A stretch of DNA of 64,000 bases from Streptomyces sp. NBC_00236 (GTDB lineage: Bacteria > Actinomycetota > Actinomycetes > Streptomycetales > Streptomycetaceae): the NCBI RefSeq assembly GCF_036195045.1, contig NZ_CP108100.1, positions 6,076,001 through 6,140,000 of the forward strand. Direction: 5' to 3'. Below the pieces are notes generated by a model. That model was given only the letters and a program-made list of their open reading frames with translations. It searched no databases and was not told where the DNA came from. The position numbers and the translations under genes were made by a program. The first letter of the stretch is position 1. Every line of letters begins with the position of its first letter. Below, piece by piece: positions 16,081 to 46,170 of this stretch.

Positions 16081-17043
16081 ATGACTTCCACCACGCGATC
16101 CGCCCCTGCCCCCGACGTATGGCTGCCCTTCCGGGCCGACGAGATCGAGGGACTCCCCGAGGGCCTCAACTACCGTTTCTGGGACGGCGGACAGGACTTC
16201 CCCGCCGACCCCGCCCACTGTGCCTTCTACGTCGTCCCCTACATGAAGGGACCGACGGTCGCGGTCCGCCCGCTCGACGGCATGAGCGGCGTCCAGGTCG
16301 TACAGACGCTCTCCGCGGGCATCGACCACGTGGAGCCGGGCCTCGGGCTGCTGCCCGCGGGCGTACGGCTCTGCAACGCCAAGGGGGTCCACGAGGCGTC
16401 CACCGCCGAGCTGACCCTCGCGCTGATCCTGGCCTCGCTGCGCGGGTTCCCCGGATTCGTGCACGGCCAGGACAAGGAGGAGTGGCGGTCCGGCTTCTAC
16501 CCCGCCCTCGCCGACAAGTCCGTGCTGATCGTCGGCTACGGATCGATCGGTTCCGCCATCGAGGACCGGCTCGCGCCCTTCGAGTGTGCGCGGGTGGCGC
16601 GCGTCGCACGCTCCGCACGGACAACCGCACGCGGCCCCGTACACACACTCGACGACCTGCCCGCACTGTTGCCCGAGGCCGATGTCGTCATCCTGTCCAC
16701 CCCGCTGAACCCCTCCACGCAAGGGCTGGTCGGCGCGGACTTCCTCGCCGCGATGCCGGACGGGGCGCTGCTCGTGAACGTGGCCCGCGGCGGTGTCGTC
16801 GACACCAAGGCCCTGTTGTCCGAACTCGAGTCCGGCCGGCTGCGCGCGGCCCTCGATGTCACGGACCCGGAACCGCTCCCTTCCGGCCATCCCCTCTGGC
16901 ATGCTCCGAACGTCCTCATCACTCCGCATGTGGGCGGCAGCACCTCGGCGTTCCTGCCGCGCGCCAAGCGCCTGCTGGCCGGACAGCTCAGCCGTTTCGC
17001 CGCGGGGGAGCCGGTGCACAACGTCGTGCGCACCACCGGCTGA
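16081..17043 (+). CDS. NAD-dependent 2-hydroxyacid dehydrogenase
   Basis: This 320-aa D-isomer-specific 2-hydroxyacid dehydrogenase has the nucleotide-binding motif GYGSIGSAIE, LLVNVARGGVVD, the conserved Glu in DVTDPEPLP and the catalytic His in TPHVGGST. Substrates in this family include glyoxylate, hydroxypyruvate and phosphonate, and cannot be told apart here. No ribosome site precedes the ATG, but a TAGCCT hexamer lies about 8 nt upstream, so a leaderless mRNA is likely. The divergent neighbour is an aldo/keto reductase. Confidence 0.88.
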   Translation: MTSTTRSAPAPDVWLPFRADEIEGLPEGLNYRFWDGGQDFPADPAHCAFYVVPYMKGPTVAVRPLDGMSGVQVVQTLSAGIDHVEPGLGLLPAGVRLCNAKGVHEASTAELTLALILASLRGFPGFVHGQDKEEWRSGFYPALADKSVLIVGYGSIGSAIEDRLAPFECARVARVARSARTTARGPVHTLDDLPALLPEADVVILSTPLNPSTQGLVGADFLAAMPDGALLVNVARGGVVDTKALLSELESGRLRAALDVTDPEPLPSGHPLWHAPNVLITPHVGGSTSAFLPRAKRLLAGQLSRFAAGEPVHNVVRTTG

Positions 17044-17228
17044 ACACGCTACGGGCACGTTCCGTACCCCTGTGTACCGACAACACCGCAGGTCGTCACG
17101 GAGAGTAGAGGAACTATGTCCCTGCGTGACGACTCTGGTGTATCGTCCCGAAAGGGGGGCTGCGCCGTGGAAGGGACGGCGCCGGGGAGGAAGCCACACG
17201 CGAGGGGGGCGAGGGCGATGTACGGCCG

Positions 17229-20165
17229 ATGGGTGAGCGATCCCACACGACAGAGCGGCCGGCGGCTGCCGCACGTGCGTCCGGTGCGCCGGCGCCGCGG
17301 CCGTCCGGCGACATCGGGGGCACCCCGGTGACCGCGCCGGCGAGCGCCCGCGCGGCCTTCCTGGCCCGTCGGCCTGCCGTCGCCCGGGCGCCCGCGATCA
17401 TCCCGCGGCTCCTCATCGGACTCGTCTGCGCCGGATACGCGGTGGGTGCGGCCGTGGGCTGGGGATCGGAGCGACTCGCCCTGTTCATGGGGGACTTCGG
17501 CCTGAGTGCGGCCGCCCTGATCGCCGCCGTCTCCTGCTTCCTGTTCGCGCGCTCGGCCGACAACAGGTTCCGGCCGGCCTGGCTGCTGTTCTCGCTCTCC
17601 TCCCTGATGGCCGCGGCGGGCAACGCGGTCTGGGGCTGGTACGAGTGCGTGCGCGAGGTCGAGGTGCCCAGCCCCTCCCTGGCCGACCTCTTCTTCCTGT
17701 GCTTCGCGCCGCCCGCCATCGTGGGGCTGCTCGTCCTCGCCAAACGCCCCGTCACCCGGGCCGGCTGGGTCTGTCTGGTTCTCGACTCCTGGCTGATCGG
17801 CGGATCGCTCCTCACGCTCTCCTGGAGCCTCGCCCTCGCCCACACCGCGCACGTGGCGGACGTGGAGGGCGCAAGCGTGGCACGCGCGGCTCTCTCACTG
17901 GCCTACCCGCTGCTCGACATCGTGCTGGTCTCGATGGTGCTCGCCCTGCACTTCCGGCGCTCCAGCGTCAACCGTGCCGCGGTGAACACGGCCATCGCCG
18001 CCCTGGCCCTCACCGTCCTGTGCGACGCGCTGTTCACCTCGCCCCTGCTGCGCCAGACCTACCAGTCCGGCCAGTTGCTCGACGCCGGCTGGTTCGCCGG
18101 TTCGCTGCTCCTCGCGTACGCCCCCTGGGGCGTCGCCCGCGGCGACGCCGACGACGACGCCGACCGGCCCGTGCCCCGTACCACCAGCCGCCCCATCTCC
18201 GGTTCGCTGGCCGCGCTCACGCCGTATCTGGCCGCAGCCGTCTGCACGCTGGGCATTCTCTACAACGTCATCGAGGGCCGCCGGGTGGACCGTGTCGTGG
18301 TCTTCACCGGGTGCACGGTGGTGCTCGCGCTGGTCGTGCGGCAGGGCATCATGCTCGTCGACAACATCGCCCTCACCCAGGAACTGGCCCAGAAGGAGAA
18401 CCACTTCCGCTCCCTGGTGCAGGGCTCCAGCGACGTCATCATGATCGCCGCCCCGACCGGCATACTCCGCTACGTCAGCCCCGCCGCCGCCGGTGTCTAC
18501 GGGCGCGAGGCGGACGACCTCGTCGGCGCCGAGCTCTCCTCGATCATCCATCCCGACGACCTCGGCCGGGTGGTCCACGAAGTGCGGAAGTTCCTCGCCG
18601 CCCCGCCGGGTGAGGAACCCACCACCCGCATCGAGTGCCGCTTCCGCTCCGGCAGCGGCGAATGGCTGAACGTCGAGTCCACCGTCAACCGTCACCAGGG
18701 CGGCCTGATCCTCAACAGCCGCGACGTGACCGAACGGGTCCGCCTGCAGGCCCAGTTACAGCACAACGCGGAGCACGACCCACTCACCGACCTGCCCAAC
18801 CGCGCGCTCTTCACCGACCGGGTCAGCCGGGCCCTCAGCGGCCGGCGCGCGGGCGACGCGGGAACCGCCGTGCTCTTCATCGACCTGGACGGCTTCAAGG
18901 CGGCCAACGACCGGTTCGGCCACCAGGCGGGCGACGAGCTCCTGATCCAGGCCGCCCGCCGCCTCCAGGAATCCGTGCGCGCGGGGGACACCGCCGCCCG
19001 CCTCGGCGGGGACGAGTTCGCCGCCCTCATCGTCGGCGACGGCGGACGCGACCAGACGGCCCGTGAGTACCAGGTCCACGAGATCGCCGACCGGCTGCGC
19101 CTCACGCTCTCCCAGCCCTACCGCATCGGCGCCGGCGAGGTGCGGGTCACCGCGTCCATCGGCGTCGCCTTCGCCGAGCCCGGCATCACCCCCAACGACC
19201 TCATGCGCAACGCCGACCTGGCCATGTACCGAGCCAAGGCGGGCGGCAAGGACCGCGTCGAGCTGTACGCCCCGCAGATGCAGGCCGAGGTGGTGCGCCG
19301 TTCCGAGCTGGCGGCCCGGCTGCGCACCGCCCTGCGGGACGGCGAGTTCGCGCTGCTGCACCAGCCCGTGGTCCATCTGGCCAGCGGCACCGTCGCCGCC
19401 GTCGCCGCCCAGGCCCGCTGGCGCTCCGCCCAGGGCATCCTCTTCACGCCCGCCGAGTTCCTCCGTGTCGCCGAGGACAGCGACCGCACCGCGGAACTCG
19501 GCCGCTGGCTCCTCGAAGAGGCCGTCGAGCAGGCCGCCGACCGTTCCAGGGCCGGCCACCAGGTCTCCGTCGCCGTCCGGCTCTCCGCCCGCAGGCTGCT
19601 CGACAAGGGCACGCCGTTCGGCTCCGTCGAGGCGCTGCTGACGCGGTACGGGCTGCCGTCCGGGGCCCTGATGATCGAGGTCGCCGACAGTGACCCCCGG
19701 GTCCCCTTCGACGAACTGGAGCAGCGCCTGGTAGCCCTCCGGCGTCTCGGCGTACGCATCGCGCTCGACGGCTTCGGCAGCGGCTACGCCGCGATCAACG
19801 CCCTGCGCCGGCTCCCCATCGACGTACTGAAACTGGACCGCGGGCTGGTGGAGGGTGTCGTCGAGTCCGCCCGGCTGCACAAGATCACCAGCGGGCTGCT
19901 GCGGATCGCCTGCGACCTCGGCATGCAGTCCGTGGCCGACGGTGTCGACGTCCCCGAACAGGTCCTCGCCCTGCGCGCCATGGGCTGTACGCACGGCCAG
20001 GGAATGGCCTTCTCCGGGCCGCTGGACGAGTACCGGCTGCGCCGCGCCCTGGTCCGCGGCGAGTTCCCGGTGCCCGGCAGTCCGGCCGTTCAGCCGGTTC
20101 TCGCGGGCGGCTCCATCCCCCTCCTGTCCGGCTCACATGCTGAGACGCCCGTCCCACCCACTTGA
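17229..20165 (+). CDS. polytopic membrane PAS-GGDEF-EAL protein with TTA codon
   Basis: This 978-aa protein has about ten membrane helices (residues 55-380), a PAS sensor domain (about 390-500), a GGDEF domain (GGDEF at residue 593) and a C-terminal EAL domain. The GGDEF site is intact, with an RAGD inhibition site five residues before it, so it probably makes c-di-GMP. The EAL domain has lost key residues (AAQARW for EALxRW, DGFGSG for DDFGTG, ADGVD for AEGVE) and is probably inactive as a phosphodiesterase. Codon 510 (18756-18758) is TTA, so full translation should need the bldA tRNA. GTG 17328 is an alternative start. From memory, the position matches SCO5511. Confidence 0.9.
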
Positions 20166-40634: not shown

Positions 40635-40708
40635 TTAGAGCACCACTCAAACTTGACCATCGAAAAGGGTTCCTGTCCCCTTGTCCGCTCGTTAGAGTGC
40701 TGCTCAAA
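40635..40708 (+). promoter_or_regulatory. two copies of palindromic operator TTnGAG-N5-CTCnAA upstream of ureAB
   Basis: TTAGAGCACCACTCAAA (40635-40651) and TTAGAGTGCTGCTCAAA (40692-40708) share the dyad TTnGAG-N5-CTCnAA, with starts 57 bp apart. A possible -10, TAGAGT, lies inside the second copy. The spacing and symmetry fit a TetR-type repressor; the TetR gene at 44133 in the same cluster is the natural candidate. Confidence 0.7.
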
Positions 40709-40735
40709 CACTGCTCGACCAAGAGGTGCCCCACC

Positions 40736-41416
40736 ATGCGACTGACCCCGACCGAGCGCGACCGGCTGCTGCTGTTCGGCGCCGCCGAGCTGGCCCGCGC
40801 CCGCCGGGCCCGCGGTCTGAAGCTGAACGTCCCCGAGGCCACCGCGCTGATCGCGGACACCGTCTGCGAGGCCGCCCGCGACGGGCGCCGGCTCGCCGAG
40901 GCGATCGAGGCCGCCCGCGGCGTGCTGGGCCCGGACGACGTGCTGCCCGGGGTCGCCGACGTCGTCACCGAAGTCCATGTGGAGGCCGTCTTCGACGACG
41001 GATCGCGGCTCGCCGTGGTCTCCCGGCCCCTGGGCACCGGCCTCGGCGACGAAGCCCCCGGCGCCGTCGTGCCAGGGCCCGCGACCGCGCAGCCCGAGCC
41101 CTCCGTACGCCTCACCGTCCGCAACACCGCGAGCGTCCCCGTCTCCGTGACCTCGCACTTCCACTTCTTCGAGGCCAACCCACGGCTCGACTTCGACCGG
41201 GCGACGGCGTACGGGATGCGGCTGTCCGTGCCCGCGGGATCCTCCGTCCGTTTCGGACCCGGCGAATCCGTCGAGGTGGGCCTGGTGCCGATCGGCGGCG
41301 ACCGCGTCGCGATCGGGTTCGCCGGACTGGTCGACGGCCCGCTCGACGCGCCCGGCGCGCGCGAGGAGGCCCTGCACCGCGCGGCCGCCTGCGGATACCT
41401 GGGGGCCGCGCGATGA
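40736..41416 (+). CDS. ureAB: fused urease gamma-beta subunit
   Basis: This 226-aa protein joins UreA (residues about 1-100: MRLTPTERDRLLLFGAAELA, LNVPEATALIADTVCEAARD, GVLGPDDVLPGV) to UreB (SVTSHFHFFEANPRLDFDR, then GDRVAIGFAGLVDG). The linker contains an Ala/Pro-rich stretch. Fusion of the two small subunits is known in some bacteria. The ATG has AGAGG upstream, and the stop overlaps ureC by 4 bp. It should form the non-catalytic shell of a urease-like enzyme with the next gene product. Confidence 0.93.
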   Translation: MRLTPTERDRLLLFGAAELARARRARGLKLNVPEATALIADTVCEAARDGRRLAEAIEAARGVLGPDDVLPGVADVVTEVHVEAVFDDGSRLAVVSRPLGTGLGDEAPGAVVPGPATAQPEPSVRLTVRNTASVPVSVTSHFHFFEANPRLDFDRATAYGMRLSVPAGSSVRFGPGESVEVGLVPIGGDRVAIGFAGLVDGPLDAPGAREEALHRAAACGYLGAAR

Positions 41417-43101
41417 GCATCGACCCGTACGAGTACGCCGCCGTGCACGGTCCGCGCGCCGGTGACCGGGTCAGGCTCGGCGACTGCGGGCTGACCGTCC
41501 GGGTCGAGTCCGACGCCCAGAAGCCGGGCGACGAGTTCCTCGCCGGATTCGGCAAGACCGCCCGCGACGGCCTCCACCTCAAGGCCGCCGCCGTCCGGGA
41601 GACCTGCGACGTGGTGATCAGCAACGTGCTGGTCATCGACGCCGTGCAGGGCATCCGGAAGGTGTCGATCGGCATCCGTGAGGGCCGGATCTCCGCGATC
41701 GGCAGGGCCGGGAACCCGGACACCCTCGACGGCGTGGACGTCGTCGTCGGCACGGGCACGTCCATCGTGTCCGGTGAGGGCATGATCGCCACGGCCGGCG
41801 CCGTCGACACCCATGTCCACCTGCTCTCGCCGCGGATCATGGAGGCCTCGCTCGCCTCCGGCGTGACCACGGTCATCGGCCAGGAGTTCGGCCCGGTCTG
41901 GGGCGTCGGCGTCAACTCGCCGTGGGCCCTGCGCCACGCGTTCAACGCCTTCGACGCCTGGCCGGTCAACATCGGCTTCCTGGGCCGCGGTTCCTCCTCC
42001 CACGAGGCGCCGCTCGTCGAGGCGCTCGCCGAGGGCGGGGCCTGCGGCTTCAAGGTCCACGAGGACATGGGCGCCCACACCCGCGCCCTGGACACCGCGC
42101 TGCGCGTCGCCGAGGAGTACGACGTCCAGGTGGCCCTGCACAGCGACGGGCTGAACGAGTGCCTGTCCGTCGAGGACACCCTGCGCGTCCTGGAGGGCCG
42201 CACCATCCACGCCTTCCACATCGAGGGCTGTGGCGGCGGCCACGTCCCCAACGTCCTGAAGATGGCCGGTGTGCCGAACGTCATCGGCTCCTCGACCAAC
42301 CCCACGCTCCCCTTCGGCCGGGACGCGGTCGCCGAGCACTACGGGATGATCGTCTCCGTCCACGACCTGAAGACGGACCTGCCCGGCGACGCGGCCATGG
42401 CCCGGGACCGGATCCGGGCCGGCACGATGGGCGCCGAGGACGTGCTGCACGACCTCGGGGCCATCGGGATCACCTCGTCCGACGCCCAGGGCATGGGCCG
42501 GGCCGGTGAGACCGTCCGCCGCACCTTCGCCATGGCCGGGAAGATGAAGGCCGAACTCGGCCCGATGGAGGGCGACGGGCCGGGCGACGACAACGCCCGG
42601 GTGCTGCGCTACATCGCCAAGCTCACCATCAACCCGGCCATCGCCCACGGCCTCGCGCACGAGATCGGCTCCATCGAGACCGGGAAGCTCGCCGACATCG
42701 TGCTGTGGCGGCCCGAGTTCTTCGGCGCGAAGCCGCAACTCGTCCTGAAATCCGGCTTCCCCGCCTACGGCGTCACCGGCGACCCCAACGCCGCCACCGA
42801 CACCTGTGAACCCCTCGTCCTCGGGCCGCAGTTCGGCGCGTACGGGGCGACCGCCGCCGATCTCTCGGTCGCCTTCGTCTCGCAGGCCGCCACCCAGCTG
42901 GGCGCGGACGCCATGCCGACCCGCAGACGGCGCGTCGGCGTCCGGGGCACCCGCGGAATCGGCCCCGCCGACCTGCGCCTCAACTCCCGTACCGGAACGG
43001 TCGACGTGGACGGGCGCAGCGGTCTCGTCACCCTGGACGGCGACCCGCTCAGCTCCGAACCCGCCGACTCGGTCTCCCTCAACCGGCTCTACTTCCTGTA
43101 A
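41413..43101 (+). CDS. ureC: divergent urease alpha (catalytic) subunit
   Basis: This 562-aa dinuclear-metal amidohydrolase retains the ligands: the HxH pair in DTHVHLL, the carbamylated lysine K214 in FKVHED, LHSDGLNE, FHIEGCGGGH and the Asp in TSSDAQGMG. The flap normally reading VCHHLD is SVHDLK here: H317 is kept, but the flap cysteine is V316 and the second His is D318. Other differences from classical ureases include GQEFGP for GGGTGP. No ureDEFG genes are in the window, so Ni loading must come from elsewhere, or the metal or substrate differs. Confidence 0.9.
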   Translation: MSIDPYEYAAVHGPRAGDRVRLGDCGLTVRVESDAQKPGDEFLAGFGKTARDGLHLKAAAVRETCDVVISNVLVIDAVQGIRKVSIGIREGRISAIGRAGNPDTLDGVDVVVGTGTSIVSGEGMIATAGAVDTHVHLLSPRIMEASLASGVTTVIGQEFGPVWGVGVNSPWALRHAFNAFDAWPVNIGFLGRGSSSHEAPLVEALAEGGACGFKVHEDMGAHTRALDTALRVAEEYDVQVALHSDGLNECLSVEDTLRVLEGRTIHAFHIEGCGGGHVPNVLKMAGVPNVIGSSTNPTLPFGRDAVAEHYGMIVSVHDLKTDLPGDAAMARDRIRAGTMGAEDVLHDLGAIGITSSDAQGMGRAGETVRRTFAMAGKMKAELGPMEGDGPGDDNARVLRYIAKLTINPAIAHGLAHEIGSIETGKLADIVLWRPEFFGAKPQLVLKSGFPAYGVTGDPNAATDTCEPLVLGPQFGAYGATAADLSVAFVSQAATQLGADAMPTRRRRVGVRGTRGIGPADLRLNSRTGTVDVDGRSGLVTLDGDPLSSEPADSVSLNRLYFL

Positions 43102-43115
43102 GGACCCGTGCTCCC

Positions 43116-44129
43116 GTGACCTTCCGCATGCCGCCCGAATGGGCCCCGCACGAACGCACCTGGATGGCCTGGCCCGGCCCCAACCCCACCTTCGCCTCCG
43201 CCGCCGAACTCGACGAGGCCCGCGGCGCCTGGGCCGCCGTCGCCCACGCCGTCCGCCGCTTCGAACCCGTCACGATGGTCGTCGGCCCCGGCCAGGAGGA
43301 GAGTGCCCGCGCCCTGCTCGGCCCGGACATCGAGCTCGCGGTGCGCCCGCTCGACGATGCCTGGATGCGCGACATCGGCCCCACCTTCGTCACCGACGGC
43401 CCTGAACTGGCGGCCGTCGACTGGACCTTCAACGGCTGGGGCGCCCAGGGCTGGGCCCGCTGGGAGCGCGACCGGCACATCGCCCGTTCCGTCGCCGAGC
43501 TCGCCGGCGTCCCCGTGCACGGCTCACCGCTCGTCAACGAGGGCGGCGCGATCCACGTCGACGGCGAGGGCACCGTCCTGCTCACCGAGACCGTTCAGCT
43601 CGGCAGGGAACGCAACCCCGACTGGAGCCGCGAGCAGGTCGAGGCCGAGGTCCACGCGCGCCTGGGCACCGAAAAGGCGATCTGGCTGCCCCGCGGACTG
43701 TCCGGCGACTACGGCACGTACGGCACGCTCGGCCACGTCGACATCGTGGCCGCCTTCGTCCGCCCCGGCACCGTCGTCGCCCACGTCCAGCCGGACCCGG
43801 CCCACCCCGACCACGAGATCACCCGCGAGACCGTCCGCGTCCTGCGCGCCGCCACCGACGCGAAGGGACGGGCGCTGGAGGTCGTGGAAGTCCTGGCGCC
43901 CACCGTGCTGCGGGCCGGCGGGGAGTGGGTCGACTACTCCTACATCAACCACTACCTCTGCAACGGCGGCGTCGTCCTGTGCGCCTTCGGCGACCCGCGC
44001 GACGAGCTCGCCGCCGGGATCTTCCGCCGCCTCTTCCCCACCCGTACGGTGACACTCGTCGACGCCCGCGCGATCTTCGCCGGGGGCGGCGGCATCCACT
44101 GCATCACCCAGCAACAGCCCAAGGTCTGA
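43116..44129 (+). CDS. agmatine deiminase family protein
   Basis: This 337-aa penta-beta-propeller guanidino-modifying enzyme starts at GTG 43116, 14 bp after ureC. Motifs include MPPEWAPHERTWMAWP, DDAWMRDIGPTFV, the catalytic His in TLGHVDIVAAFV and the nucleophilic Cys C329 in GGGGIHCITQQQP. Agmatine deiminases convert agmatine to N-carbamoylputrescine and ammonia. Its coupling with a urease-like enzyme suggests a nitrogen-salvage pathway for guanidino or carbamoyl compounds. Confidence 0.92.
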   Translation: MTFRMPPEWAPHERTWMAWPGPNPTFASAAELDEARGAWAAVAHAVRRFEPVTMVVGPGQEESARALLGPDIELAVRPLDDAWMRDIGPTFVTDGPELAAVDWTFNGWGAQGWARWERDRHIARSVAELAGVPVHGSPLVNEGGAIHVDGEGTVLLTETVQLGRERNPDWSREQVEAEVHARLGTEKAIWLPRGLSGDYGTYGTLGHVDIVAAFVRPGTVVAHVQPDPAHPDHEITRETVRVLRAATDAKGRALEVVEVLAPTVLRAGGEWVDYSYINHYLCNGGVVLCAFGDPRDELAAGIFRRLFPTRTVTLVDARAIFAGGGGIHCITQQQPKV

Positions 44130-44132
44130 ACC

Positions 44133-44741
44133 GTGCCCCCCACCCCGCGCAGCCGCAACACCGCCCCGCCCCGCGAGGACGTGCTCGCCGCCGTCATGGC
44201 CACCGTCGCCGCACGCGGCCTCGACGGCCTCACGATGGCCGGGCTCGGCCGCGAGGTCGGCATGAGCAGCGGCCACCTCCTCTACTACTTCCGCACCAAG
44301 GACGAGCTGCTGCTCCAGACCCTCGAATGGAGCGAGAACCGGCTCGGGGCCGAGCGGCGCAGCCTGCTGTCGCGGCCCGGCACGGTTCGCGAACGCCTCG
44401 ACGCGTACATCGCCCTCTACCTCCCCGCCGGCCACCGCGACCCGCACTGGACGCTCTGGCTGGAGGTCTGGAACCGCTCGCGCGACGCCGACGACACCGC
44501 CCGCGCCCGGCAGGCCGCGATCGAGGGTGCCTGGCACCGCGACCTGGTGGCGCTGCTCGCCGAGGGCGGCTCGCGCGGCGAGTTCCGCCGGGTCGACGCC
44601 GAGCGCTACGCGACCCGGCTGCGCGCGCTGCTGGACGGCTTCAGCGTCCATGTGGCGGTCGGCCTTCCCGGGACCGGACGCGACCAAGTGCTCGAAGGCG
44701 TGGCCGAGTTCATCGAGGAGACCCTGGCCGCGAACGGCTGA
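44133..44741 (+). CDS. TetR family regulator of the urease-like cluster
   Basis: This 202-aa protein has the TetR helix-turn-helix (GLTMAGLGREVGMSSGHLLYYF) and a C-terminal domain like BetI-type repressors (WLEVWNRSRDADDTARAR). The GTG start is 3 bp after the agmatine deiminase stop, so the two are co-translated. As the only regulator in the cluster, it probably binds the two TTnGAG-N5-CTCnAA sites before ureAB and represses the operon until its ligand appears. Confidence 0.92.
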   Translation: MPPTPRSRNTAPPREDVLAAVMATVAARGLDGLTMAGLGREVGMSSGHLLYYFRTKDELLLQTLEWSENRLGAERRSLLSRPGTVRERLDAYIALYLPAGHRDPHWTLWLEVWNRSRDADDTARARQAAIEGAWHRDLVALLAEGGSRGEFRRVDAERYATRLRALLDGFSVHVAVGLPGTGRDQVLEGVAEFIEETLAANG

Positions 44742-44838
44742 CGTCACCCACTCGTGAACACAACGTACGTAAGTACGCGTGATCGTTGCGCCCTGCACCC
44801 TTGTTGGGTTCCCGGCGGTTCGGGCACGGTGGCCAACC

Positions 44839-46170
44839 ATGGGACGAGAGCAGTGGAAGAAAATCTGGGTCGGCTCGGCCGGCAACATGGTCGAGTGGTT
44901 CGACTGGTTCGTGTACGCGACCTTCGCGGTGTACTTCGCGGACTCGTTCTTCCCCGAAGGCAACGAGACCGCCAACCTCATGAACACCATGGGCATTTTC
45001 GCCGTCGGCTTCTTCATGCGGCCGGTCGGCGGCTGGCTGCTCGGCAGGATCGGTGACCGCAGGGGCCGCAAGGCCGCGCTCACCCTGACCGTCACCCTCA
45101 TGTCGGCCTCCGCGGTCCTCATCGCGATCGCGCCGACCTACGACGTCGCCGGGTACGGCGGCGTCGCCGTGCTGATGGTGGCCCGGCTGCTCCAGGGGCT
45201 GTCCGTCGGCGGCGAGTACGCGGCCAGCGCCACCTACCTCACCGAGGCATCCGCACCCGAGAAGCGCGGCTTCGCCTCCAGCTTCCAGTACGTGTCCATG
45301 ACCGCCGGACAGCTCGTCGGCCTCGGCCTCCAGATCCTCCTGCAGCGCAACATGTCCGAGGCGGCGCTGCACAGCTGGGGCTGGCGCATCCCGTTCGTCG
45401 TCGGCGCGCTCGGCGCGGGCATCGTCTTCTATCTGCGCCGCTCCATGCTGGAGACCGAGGTGTACGCGGAGTCCGGCGCCGCCGAGCAGCAGGACCGCGG
45501 CACGCTGAAGGTGCTGTGGCAGCACCGGCGCGAGGCCTTCCTCGTGATGGCGCTCACCATGGGCGGCACCGTCGCCTACTACACGTACACGACCTACCTC
45601 ACGAAGTTCCTCTCCAAGAGCGCCGGCATGGAGAAGTCCACCGCCTCGCTCGTCAGCTTCTGCGCGCTGTTCGTGTTCATGTGCATCCAGCCGCTGGCCG
45701 GGATGCTGTCCGACCGGATCGGCCGCCGTCCGCTGCTGATCACCTTCGCGATCGGCTCGACCTTCCTGACCGTGCCGATCATGACGATGCTGAAGCACGC
45801 GGACACCTTCTGGCCCGCGCTCGGCCTTGCGCTCCTCGCGCTGCTCGTGATCACCGGCTACACCTCCATCAACGCCTGCGTGAAGGCCGAGCTCTTCCCG
45901 ACCGGTATCCGCGCCCTGGGCGTCGGTCTCTCGTACGCCGTCGCCAACGCCCTGTTCGGAGGCACCGCCGAGTACGTGGCGCTGTGGTTCAAGAACGCCG
46001 GCGCCGAGTCCGGCTTCTACTGGTACGTCGCGGGCTGCGCCGCAGTCTCGCTCATCGTCTACCTGACCATGCGGGAGACCCGCGACATCGATCTCAACCG
46101 GGTCGCCGCCGTGCGGGCCGGGGAGAAGACGTCGCCCGCCGGAGCGACGAGCGTCACGCCCGCATCCTGA
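44839..46170 (+). CDS. MHS-family MFS transporter (alpha-ketoglutarate permease-like)
   Basis: This 443-aa protein has 12 predicted membrane helices and metabolite:H+ symporter motifs: GNMVEWFDWFVYATFAVYFA, GFFMRPVGGWLLGRIGDRRG (MFS motif A) and ARLLQGLSVGGEYAASATYL. Related permeases import dicarboxylates, alpha-ketoglutarate or betaine-like solutes with protons. I start it at ATG 44839; an upstream in-frame GTG at 44779 would add codons with poor G/C third positions. It lies 97 bp after the TetR gene, and a CGTAC-GTAA-GTACG dyad sits in that gap. Confidence 0.9.
   Translation: MGREQWKKIWVGSAGNMVEWFDWFVYATFAVYFADSFFPEGNETANLMNTMGIFAVGFFMRPVGGWLLGRIGDRRGRKAALTLTVTLMSASAVLIAIAPTYDVAGYGGVAVLMVARLLQGLSVGGEYAASATYLTEASAPEKRGFASSFQYVSMTAGQLVGLGLQILLQRNMSEAALHSWGWRIPFVVGALGAGIVFYLRRSMLETEVYAESGAAEQQDRGTLKVLWQHRREAFLVMALTMGGTVAYYTYTTYLTKFLSKSAGMEKSTASLVSFCALFVFMCIQPLAGMLSDRIGRRPLLITFAIGSTFLTVPIMTMLKHADTFWPALGLALLALLVITGYTSINACVKAELFPTGIRALGVGLSYAVANALFGGTAEYVALWFKNAGAESGFYWYVAGCAAVSLIVYLTMRETRDIDLNRVAAVRAGEKTSPAGATSVTPAS

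Follow-up and report, generated by a model that had tools for sequence, protein, structure and literature searches.

Urease-like UreABC proteins paired with agmatine deiminases in Streptomyces and related bacteria: candidate accessory-independent hydrolases of N-carbamoylputrescine

Urease is a textbook case of an enzyme with strict specificity and a need for dedicated metal-insertion machinery. A precedent for accessory-free urease chemistry is UreA2B2 of H. mustelae (passages of PMC2846917), an iron urease that is reported, in the part of PMC11541087 dealing with it, to be active without accessory proteins. In the AguA-AguB pathway of P. aeruginosa (pathway passages of PMC9397018), the agmatine deiminase AguA acts first and a nitrilase, the N-carbamoylputrescine amidohydrolase AguB, second. 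For S. coelicolor, it was noted in 2008 that no accessory genes accompany SCO5525-5526 (relevant passages of PMC2492869), while the corresponding part of PMC3293853 lists the pair as urea-utilising and describes SCO5527 as homologous to a gene of the arginine decarboxylase pathway. The present analysis concerns a cassette in a 64,000-nucleotide window (positions 6,076,001-6,140,000) of the 8.33 Mb single-contig genome of Streptomyces sp. NBC_00236, in which a fused urease gamma/beta-type subunit (UreAB') and a urease alpha-type amidohydrolase (UreC'; together UreABC') are followed by an agmatine deiminase-type enzyme (AguA'). Judging from the gene numbers, SCO5525-5526 and the AguA homologue SCO5527 are very probably the same locus as this cassette; the S. 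coelicolor gene order around SCO5525-5527 is a second basis for that identity.

From the gene patterns set out below, it is rather likely that UreABC' works without accessory proteins and hydrolyses what the deiminase yields, most likely N-carbamoylputrescine, in which role it would replace AguB, and the cassette is probably not a spare urease. Deiminase chemistry converts R-NH-C(=NH)NH2 into R-NH-CO-NH2 (i.e. a mono-substituted urea), which would be a chemically suitable substrate for an enzyme of the urease family whose pocket has been reshaped. Acting on a guanidino compound (most likely agmatine), AguA' would release ammonia and leave a ureido compound (N-carbamoylputrescine), and UreABC', through a bimetallic centre with the ligands of urease, would hydrolyse the latter to an amine (putrescine), CO2 and a second ammonia, thus filling the role that the nitrilase AguB has in other bacteria. 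The arrangement resembles the AguA-AguB pathway in having an AguA-type deiminase first, a predicted ureido hydrolase second and adjoining genes, and differs in that the second enzyme would be a urease-family metalloenzyme rather than a nitrilase. The order of deiminase first and amidohydrolase second had been proposed in the first-pass annotation of the window, and it has gained support from linkage in 58 out of 58 loci, from the occurrence of the clade in genomes without UreD, UreF and UreG, and from the position of UreABC' in a slot that AguB-like nitrilases hold in some other genomes.

All genes of the cassette lie on the forward strand. The gene ureAB' (40736..41416) matches PF00547 (1.2e-34) and PF00699 (9.2e-31) and exceeds the NF009671 cut-off; ureC' (41413..43101; PF00449, PF01979) encodes a protein whose active-site alignment shows a rewritten substrate loop and a change of the flap Cys to Val; aguA' (43116..44129) matches the agmatine deiminase-type family PAD_porph (PF04371; 7.1e-111, 371 bits). 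These are followed by tetR (44133..44741; PF00440, PF13977), a TetR-type gene with a BetI-like C-terminal domain and the presumed local regulator, and by a gene for a transporter. In this order the genes are separated by a 4-bp overlap, 14 bp, 3 bp and 97 bp, so that the tight packing (overlaps or gaps of 3-97 bp) claimed at the outset was confirmed together with the genes and their domains. With 645 bits UreC' does not reach the 680-bit cut-off of TIGR01792, the equivalog model for urease alpha; it does pass NF009686, a model of the broader subfamily. AguA' obtains 300.3 bits against the agmatine deiminase equivalog TIGR03380, where 381.8 would be required; since both are under their equivalog cut-offs, both must be regarded as divergent. 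AguA' keeps the Cys, His and Asp motifs (GGGGIHCITQQQP, GHVD and RDIGPTF) and can be aligned with the solved agmatine deiminases 1vkp, 3h7c and 2ewo, and with 6nib.

Among the 120 best matches to UreC', the named relatives are Streptomyces, and a clear gap separates the full-length relatives (at least 79% identical) from the next UreC proteins (at most 52%). In a genus sample of 81 Streptomyces genomes UreC' is found in 47, one of which (G433) is counted from fragments and another (G435) from a split match. Apart from the window's copy and the fragments of G433 (L129, L130), all UreC' matches were included in a set of 58 loci (L039-L096), in every one of which UreAB' precedes UreC' and no more than 1.4 kb separates UreC' or UreAB' from a gene of the agmatine deiminase type. 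Fifty of the 58 copies occupy what we call the leucine locus, where the window's cassette also lies, with ilvE on one side and a cimA/leuA-type gene on the other; ilvE is found in all 50 stretches (inverted in L096), as is tetR. Six second copies stand elsewhere (L080, L081, L083, L084, L085, L090), with a deiminase only 44-46% identical to AguA', and in two of them (L084, L085) tetR lies between ureC' and the deiminase, with another PAD_porph gene directly 5' of ureAB'. Two further loci have the order deiminase-ureAB'-ureC', one of them with an NCS1 gene in front. The loci show different gene orders and three lineages of deiminase, and with 50 leucine-locus copies, six second copies and two loci of reversed order, the pairing is kept whatever the position, the gene order or the lineage of the deiminase. 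For comparison, 77 other loci, urease-like by motif, were examined, of which one has a deiminase match in the fetched stretch. This exception (L139) is a canonical-type urease of Kitasatospora with a PAD_porph-type match at 16401-17366, 6.7 kb off.

The active site was aligned for 58 sequences (the window and 57 loci, the broken L088 being left out), with residues numbered as in Klebsiella urease. The six metal ligands (H134, H136, K217, H246, H272 and D360), among them the Lys that is carbamylated in urease, are kept in 58/58, as are H219, H320 and R336, and in these residues, as well as in subunit set and domain families, UreABC' is like the nickel urease UreABC (EC 3.5.1.5). It differs from nickel urease in the pocket: the canonical loop GGGTGPAxG...TPG is replaced in all 58 by QEFGP(V/M)WGVGVNS, four residues shorter (in the window QEFGPVWGVGVNS, with a 4-residue deletion relative to the canonical loop), the position of the canonical Ala363 is Gly throughout, and the flap Cys is lost (Val in 55, Ala in three), with the flap His retained. 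A loss of the catalytic flap His was ruled out on re-alignment, the Cys alone being altered. The divergence of loop and flap might suggest a catalytically dead protein with a structural or regulatory role, which is very improbable given that ligands and catalytic residues are invariant in 58/58 and that nearly all full-length copies are 86-99% identical across the genus (two are at 79%).

UreC-like relatives occur in other Actinomycetota, as a group II (L117, L118) with a loop of the form Q-D-[FY]-GPVWNLG, and as a group III (family f15 and G269) with a TAGFEEP loop and an 11-residue deletion. In midpoint-rooted trees, which leave out H. mustelae UreA2B2 as well as the clusters with a fused ureAB that passages of PMC2492869 mention for P. 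syringae and Bradyrhizobium, UreC' and groups II and III are united in a single clade (support of 1.0 in FastTree and an ultrafast bootstrap of 100 in IQ-TREE; 1.0 again with 82 sequences). The A363-to-Gly change is likewise seen in some UreC outside this clade. Of 396 genomes drawn from the phylum, 67 carry UreC, and 12 of these (G007, G022, G037, G084, G106, G117, G127, G160, G208, G224, G245 and G269) have only this clade, as placed by the tree. UreD and UreF were each found in none of the 12, compared to 54 of the 55 other UreC-bearing genomes, the exceptions being G259 (UreF yes, UreD no) and G171 (no UreF, and a UreD match that is counted in the 54 though under the curated cut-off). UreG, which was searched in 30 genomes, was also found in none of the 12. 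UreE_N, searched in 30 genomes as well, matched in only five and in none of the four Streptomyces among them, which makes UreE uninformative. Family f15 has a group III UreC in 11 of 17 genomes and UreD in 0 of 17, and in G269, which is without UreD and UreF, the fetched UreC belongs to group III.

A circular split between the two sets of genomes is guarded against by checking all UreC of the other 55, of which only the Streptomyces UreC' and L118 (in G218), both beside full ureases, fall in the clade. The last 33 comparison stretches are all canonical by flap motif, and 32 of them were placed outside the clade by tree; L265 (G237) contains stops, was left out of the tree and was judged by flap only, while the canonical copy of G171 is broken. 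The clade-only genomes are 81-98% complete and in majority fragmented drafts, at which completeness single absences could be gaps, whereas 12 out of 12 for several families could not easily be. In L118 the group II UreAB-UreC genes stand amid housekeeping-looking genes with no deiminase match nearby, in a genome with a full urease operon.

It thus seems that the clade may be independent of the UreDFG nickel-insertion machinery. For UreA2B2 activity without accessory proteins has been reported, while here independence is suggested by the genome-wide absence of the genes in clade-only genomes; in addition, UreA2B2 is a urease, whereas UreC' differs in its loop and is partnered by a deiminase. 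As to the clade as a whole, in Actinomycetota and at least one Dormiibacterota bin, we give even chances to the proposition that it is an accessory-independent hydrolase of N-carbamoylputrescine (or a similar ureido amine) that has replaced AguB and may not use nickel.

The genome of the window itself is less telling in this respect. The first-pass annotation had pointed out that no ureD, ureF or ureG accompanies the cassette, and indeed matches over the cut-offs for UreD, UreF and UreG occur only at three other places in the genome and none in the window. These places are adjacent to three further UreC genes (at 784 kb, 6.92 Mb and 7.78 Mb), so that a search for a second full urease locus, which had been advised as a check, turned up three full operons. 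Because these could supply UreD, UreF and UreG in trans, the missing neighbours prove little in this genome; UreE_N had no match at E 0.001 anywhere in it. One of the canonical operons contains a 345-codon open frame between ureA and ureB (L007 5579-6616).

UreABC' could be a true second urease, hydrolysing urea after maturation by the UreDFG of other operons, with the deiminase as a neighbour that shares ammonia release under nitrogen limitation. A canonical-type UreC accompanies UreC' in 47 of the 47 UreC' genomes of the genus sample, for which reason accessory helpers could act in trans in Streptomyces, and this counts against accessory independence; the metal ligands, H320 and R336 are kept; and the gene pair has been annotated and read as urease (in the passages concerned of PMC3293853 and PMC5489568). 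Still, a second urease seems rather unlikely, as the canonical loop is replaced in 58/58, the deiminase would yield a ureido compound and not urea, and the sister proteins occur in 12 out of 12 genomes without a UreD or UreF match. In G171, moreover, a Streptomyces whose canonical operon (L216) is interrupted by an IS200/IS605-type insertion (identified by eye), with no UreF match, a sub-threshold UreD and a weak UreG-family match, the UreC' reading frame has stayed open.

The association with the deiminase extends beyond Streptomyces. PAD_porph is found in 52 of the 396 phylum genomes, namely in 15 of 22 with the clade versus 37 of 374 without it (Fisher p 7e-10) and, outside Streptomyces, in 6 of 13 versus 36 of 371 (p 0.001), the tests on phylum genomes ignoring relatedness. 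For the neighbourhood of AguB-like nitrilases, 49 of the 52 genomes were considered, with the weak or fragmentary G244, G306 and G367 excluded. Among the 34 of these genomes that lack the clade, 12 have such a nitrilase at a distance of 24-177 bp from the deiminase, as against none of the 15 clade-bearing ones (Fisher p 0.0095); in these 15, window genome included, no AguB-like match was found within 2 kb of the deiminase. Instead, UreABC' adjoins the deiminase in 12 of the 15, i.e. nine Streptomyces, G208 (L117), G007 (L120) and G224 (L214), while G084, G106 and G218 carry UreABC' and the deiminase on separate contigs. In the deiminase tree the clade-linked enzymes form several separate lineages, scattered among the AguB-linked ones. 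The Dormiibacterota bin (L134) has a deiminase match 6.4 kb from UreAB-UreC in one 9.2-kb stretch, together with a TetR match and, by eye, binding-protein-like frames; it resembles the second Streptomyces copies, and its UreAB-UreC is cut by the contig end.

Several observations weigh against the function proposed for UreABC'. Seven of the 22 clade genomes have no PAD_porph match, so that in some cases the substrate may have a source other than AguA, and in 22 of the 34 comparison genomes the deiminase has no AguB-like neighbour. Of the 12 AguB-like neighbours only five pass the AguB cut-off, and they are called AguB-like because the model matches other nitrilases too (5 of 57 genomes pass the cut-off). 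Several nodes of the deiminase tree are weakly supported. Furthermore, all 12 Streptomyces searched carry an AguB-like nitrilase of approximately 260 bits elsewhere in the genome, under the 410-bit cut-off, and the second step could in Streptomyces therefore be that nitrilase's. Finally, a few UreC that do not belong to the clade (L026, L127 and L034) share the flap Cys-to-Val change, owing to which this change is not diagnostic by itself and was rejected as a stand-alone mark.

With regard to the substrate, agmatine is the simplest candidate, since the deiminases of the pairs are members of the agmatine deiminase family and genes for importers of polyamine type lie beside some relatives. In three genomes of one genus (L128, L212, L213) group III UreAB-UreC runs directly into genes for a Pot-type importer, as judged from PotA, PotD and PotB family matches in L128 and from equivalent frames, seen by eye, in L212 and L213. 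The transporters at UreABC' loci vary, which speaks against agmatine. A divergent NCS1 (PF02133) permease accompanies 37 of the 50 leucine-locus copies (in pieces in L059), and a gene of the metabolite/H+ symporter (MHS) family 12 of the 50, equal to 12 of all 58 (in L074 some 5 kb away); five of the six second copies have an SBP_bac_5 binding protein, the remaining Opp-type importer genes being annotated in L080 only. Uptake would proceed by whichever transporter is available, be it NCS1, MHS, Opp-type or Pot-type.

The same two-step chemistry might also act on another guanidino compound, such as guanidinobutyrate, a guanidino metabolite or, in clusters with secreted deiminases, peptidyl arginine. 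AguA' being under the agmatine deiminase cut-off fits this idea, as do the varying transporters (NCS1, MHS, Opp-type), of which MHS carriers usually move acids, and the deiminases with Tat-like N-terminal extensions (by eye) that second copies add. It is nonetheless unlikely, given that AguB-like nitrilases are the partners of related AguAs elsewhere and that Pot-type polyamine importer genes adjoin the three group III loci. Apart from this question, the second copies carry further PAD_porph genes and other TetR genes, and since the N-termini of the extra deiminases resemble Tat signals by eye, these clusters are perhaps an extracellular deimination system.

Two operator-like palindromes, found by scanning the window, precede the cassette: palindrome 1 (40635..40651), TTAGAG-N5-CTCAAA, distal to ureAB', and palindrome 2 (40692..40708), TTAGAGTGCTGCTCAAA, immediately 5' of it and the presumed TetR site. 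The segment singled out in the first-pass annotation starts at 40635, which is the first base of palindrome 1. The BetI-type TetR is the putative binder of both palindromes and would repress the operon from them. A palindrome of the form TTAGAGTGNYGCTCTAA lies upstream of ureAB' in all 50 leucine-locus copies but at none of the 8 loci elsewhere, and copies with NCS1 have a second one, as a rule weaker, on the side of that gene (none above threshold in L075). The NCS1 permease gene (L070 9511-10959 and equivalents) shares the operator region with ureAB'; none stands beside the window's copy. The matrix was built from the leucine-locus regions themselves, so that the independent test is the whole-genome scan, in which TTWRAGYGNYRYTCNAA has two zero-mismatch matches, palindromes 1 and 2 only. 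With up to two mismatches there were 33 matches genome-wide versus 72 for a reversed control pattern, i.e. no excess, and the regulon consequently gives no clue to the substrate.

The transporter gene downstream of tetR in the window (44839..46170; PF00083/PF07690) is peripheral. Its start is uncertain, a GTG at 44779 being the alternative, and its product, an MHS-family member of the MFS, scores 403 bits against TIGR00883, under the cut-off of 443. The first-pass annotation had counted it as part of the cassette, which does not hold: it stands beside only 12 of 58 loci and no palindrome precedes it in the window, and it was therefore rejected as a core member.

With regard to the suggestion of an undescribed nitrogen-salvage pathway in the first-pass annotation, a urease pair standing without accessory genes was already in print for S. 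coelicolor (passages of PMC2492869 and PMC3293853), where it was treated as urease. The passages on Streptomyces ure(AB)C clusters in PMC2492869, PMC3293853 and PMC5489568 read them as urease and do not mention the pairing, the altered site or the accessory-free clade, and the open-access papers that searches listed, judged by title, start of abstract or passages (subscription papers lying mostly outside them), contained no link between agmatine deiminase and a urease-like enzyme and no description of the clade. In a passage of PMC4991794 nrdABS is labelled SCO5526-SCO5524, probably a slip for other numbers, which may mislead searches by gene number.

If the proposed function is correct, a clade with a kept metal site, a changed pocket and no UreD, UreF or UreG would offer a route into the evolution of urease specificity and maturation. 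It would also add a step to the polyamine nitrogen metabolism of bacteria, and would correct the labelling of genes as 'urease subunit alpha' in Streptomyces and in metagenomes from soil.

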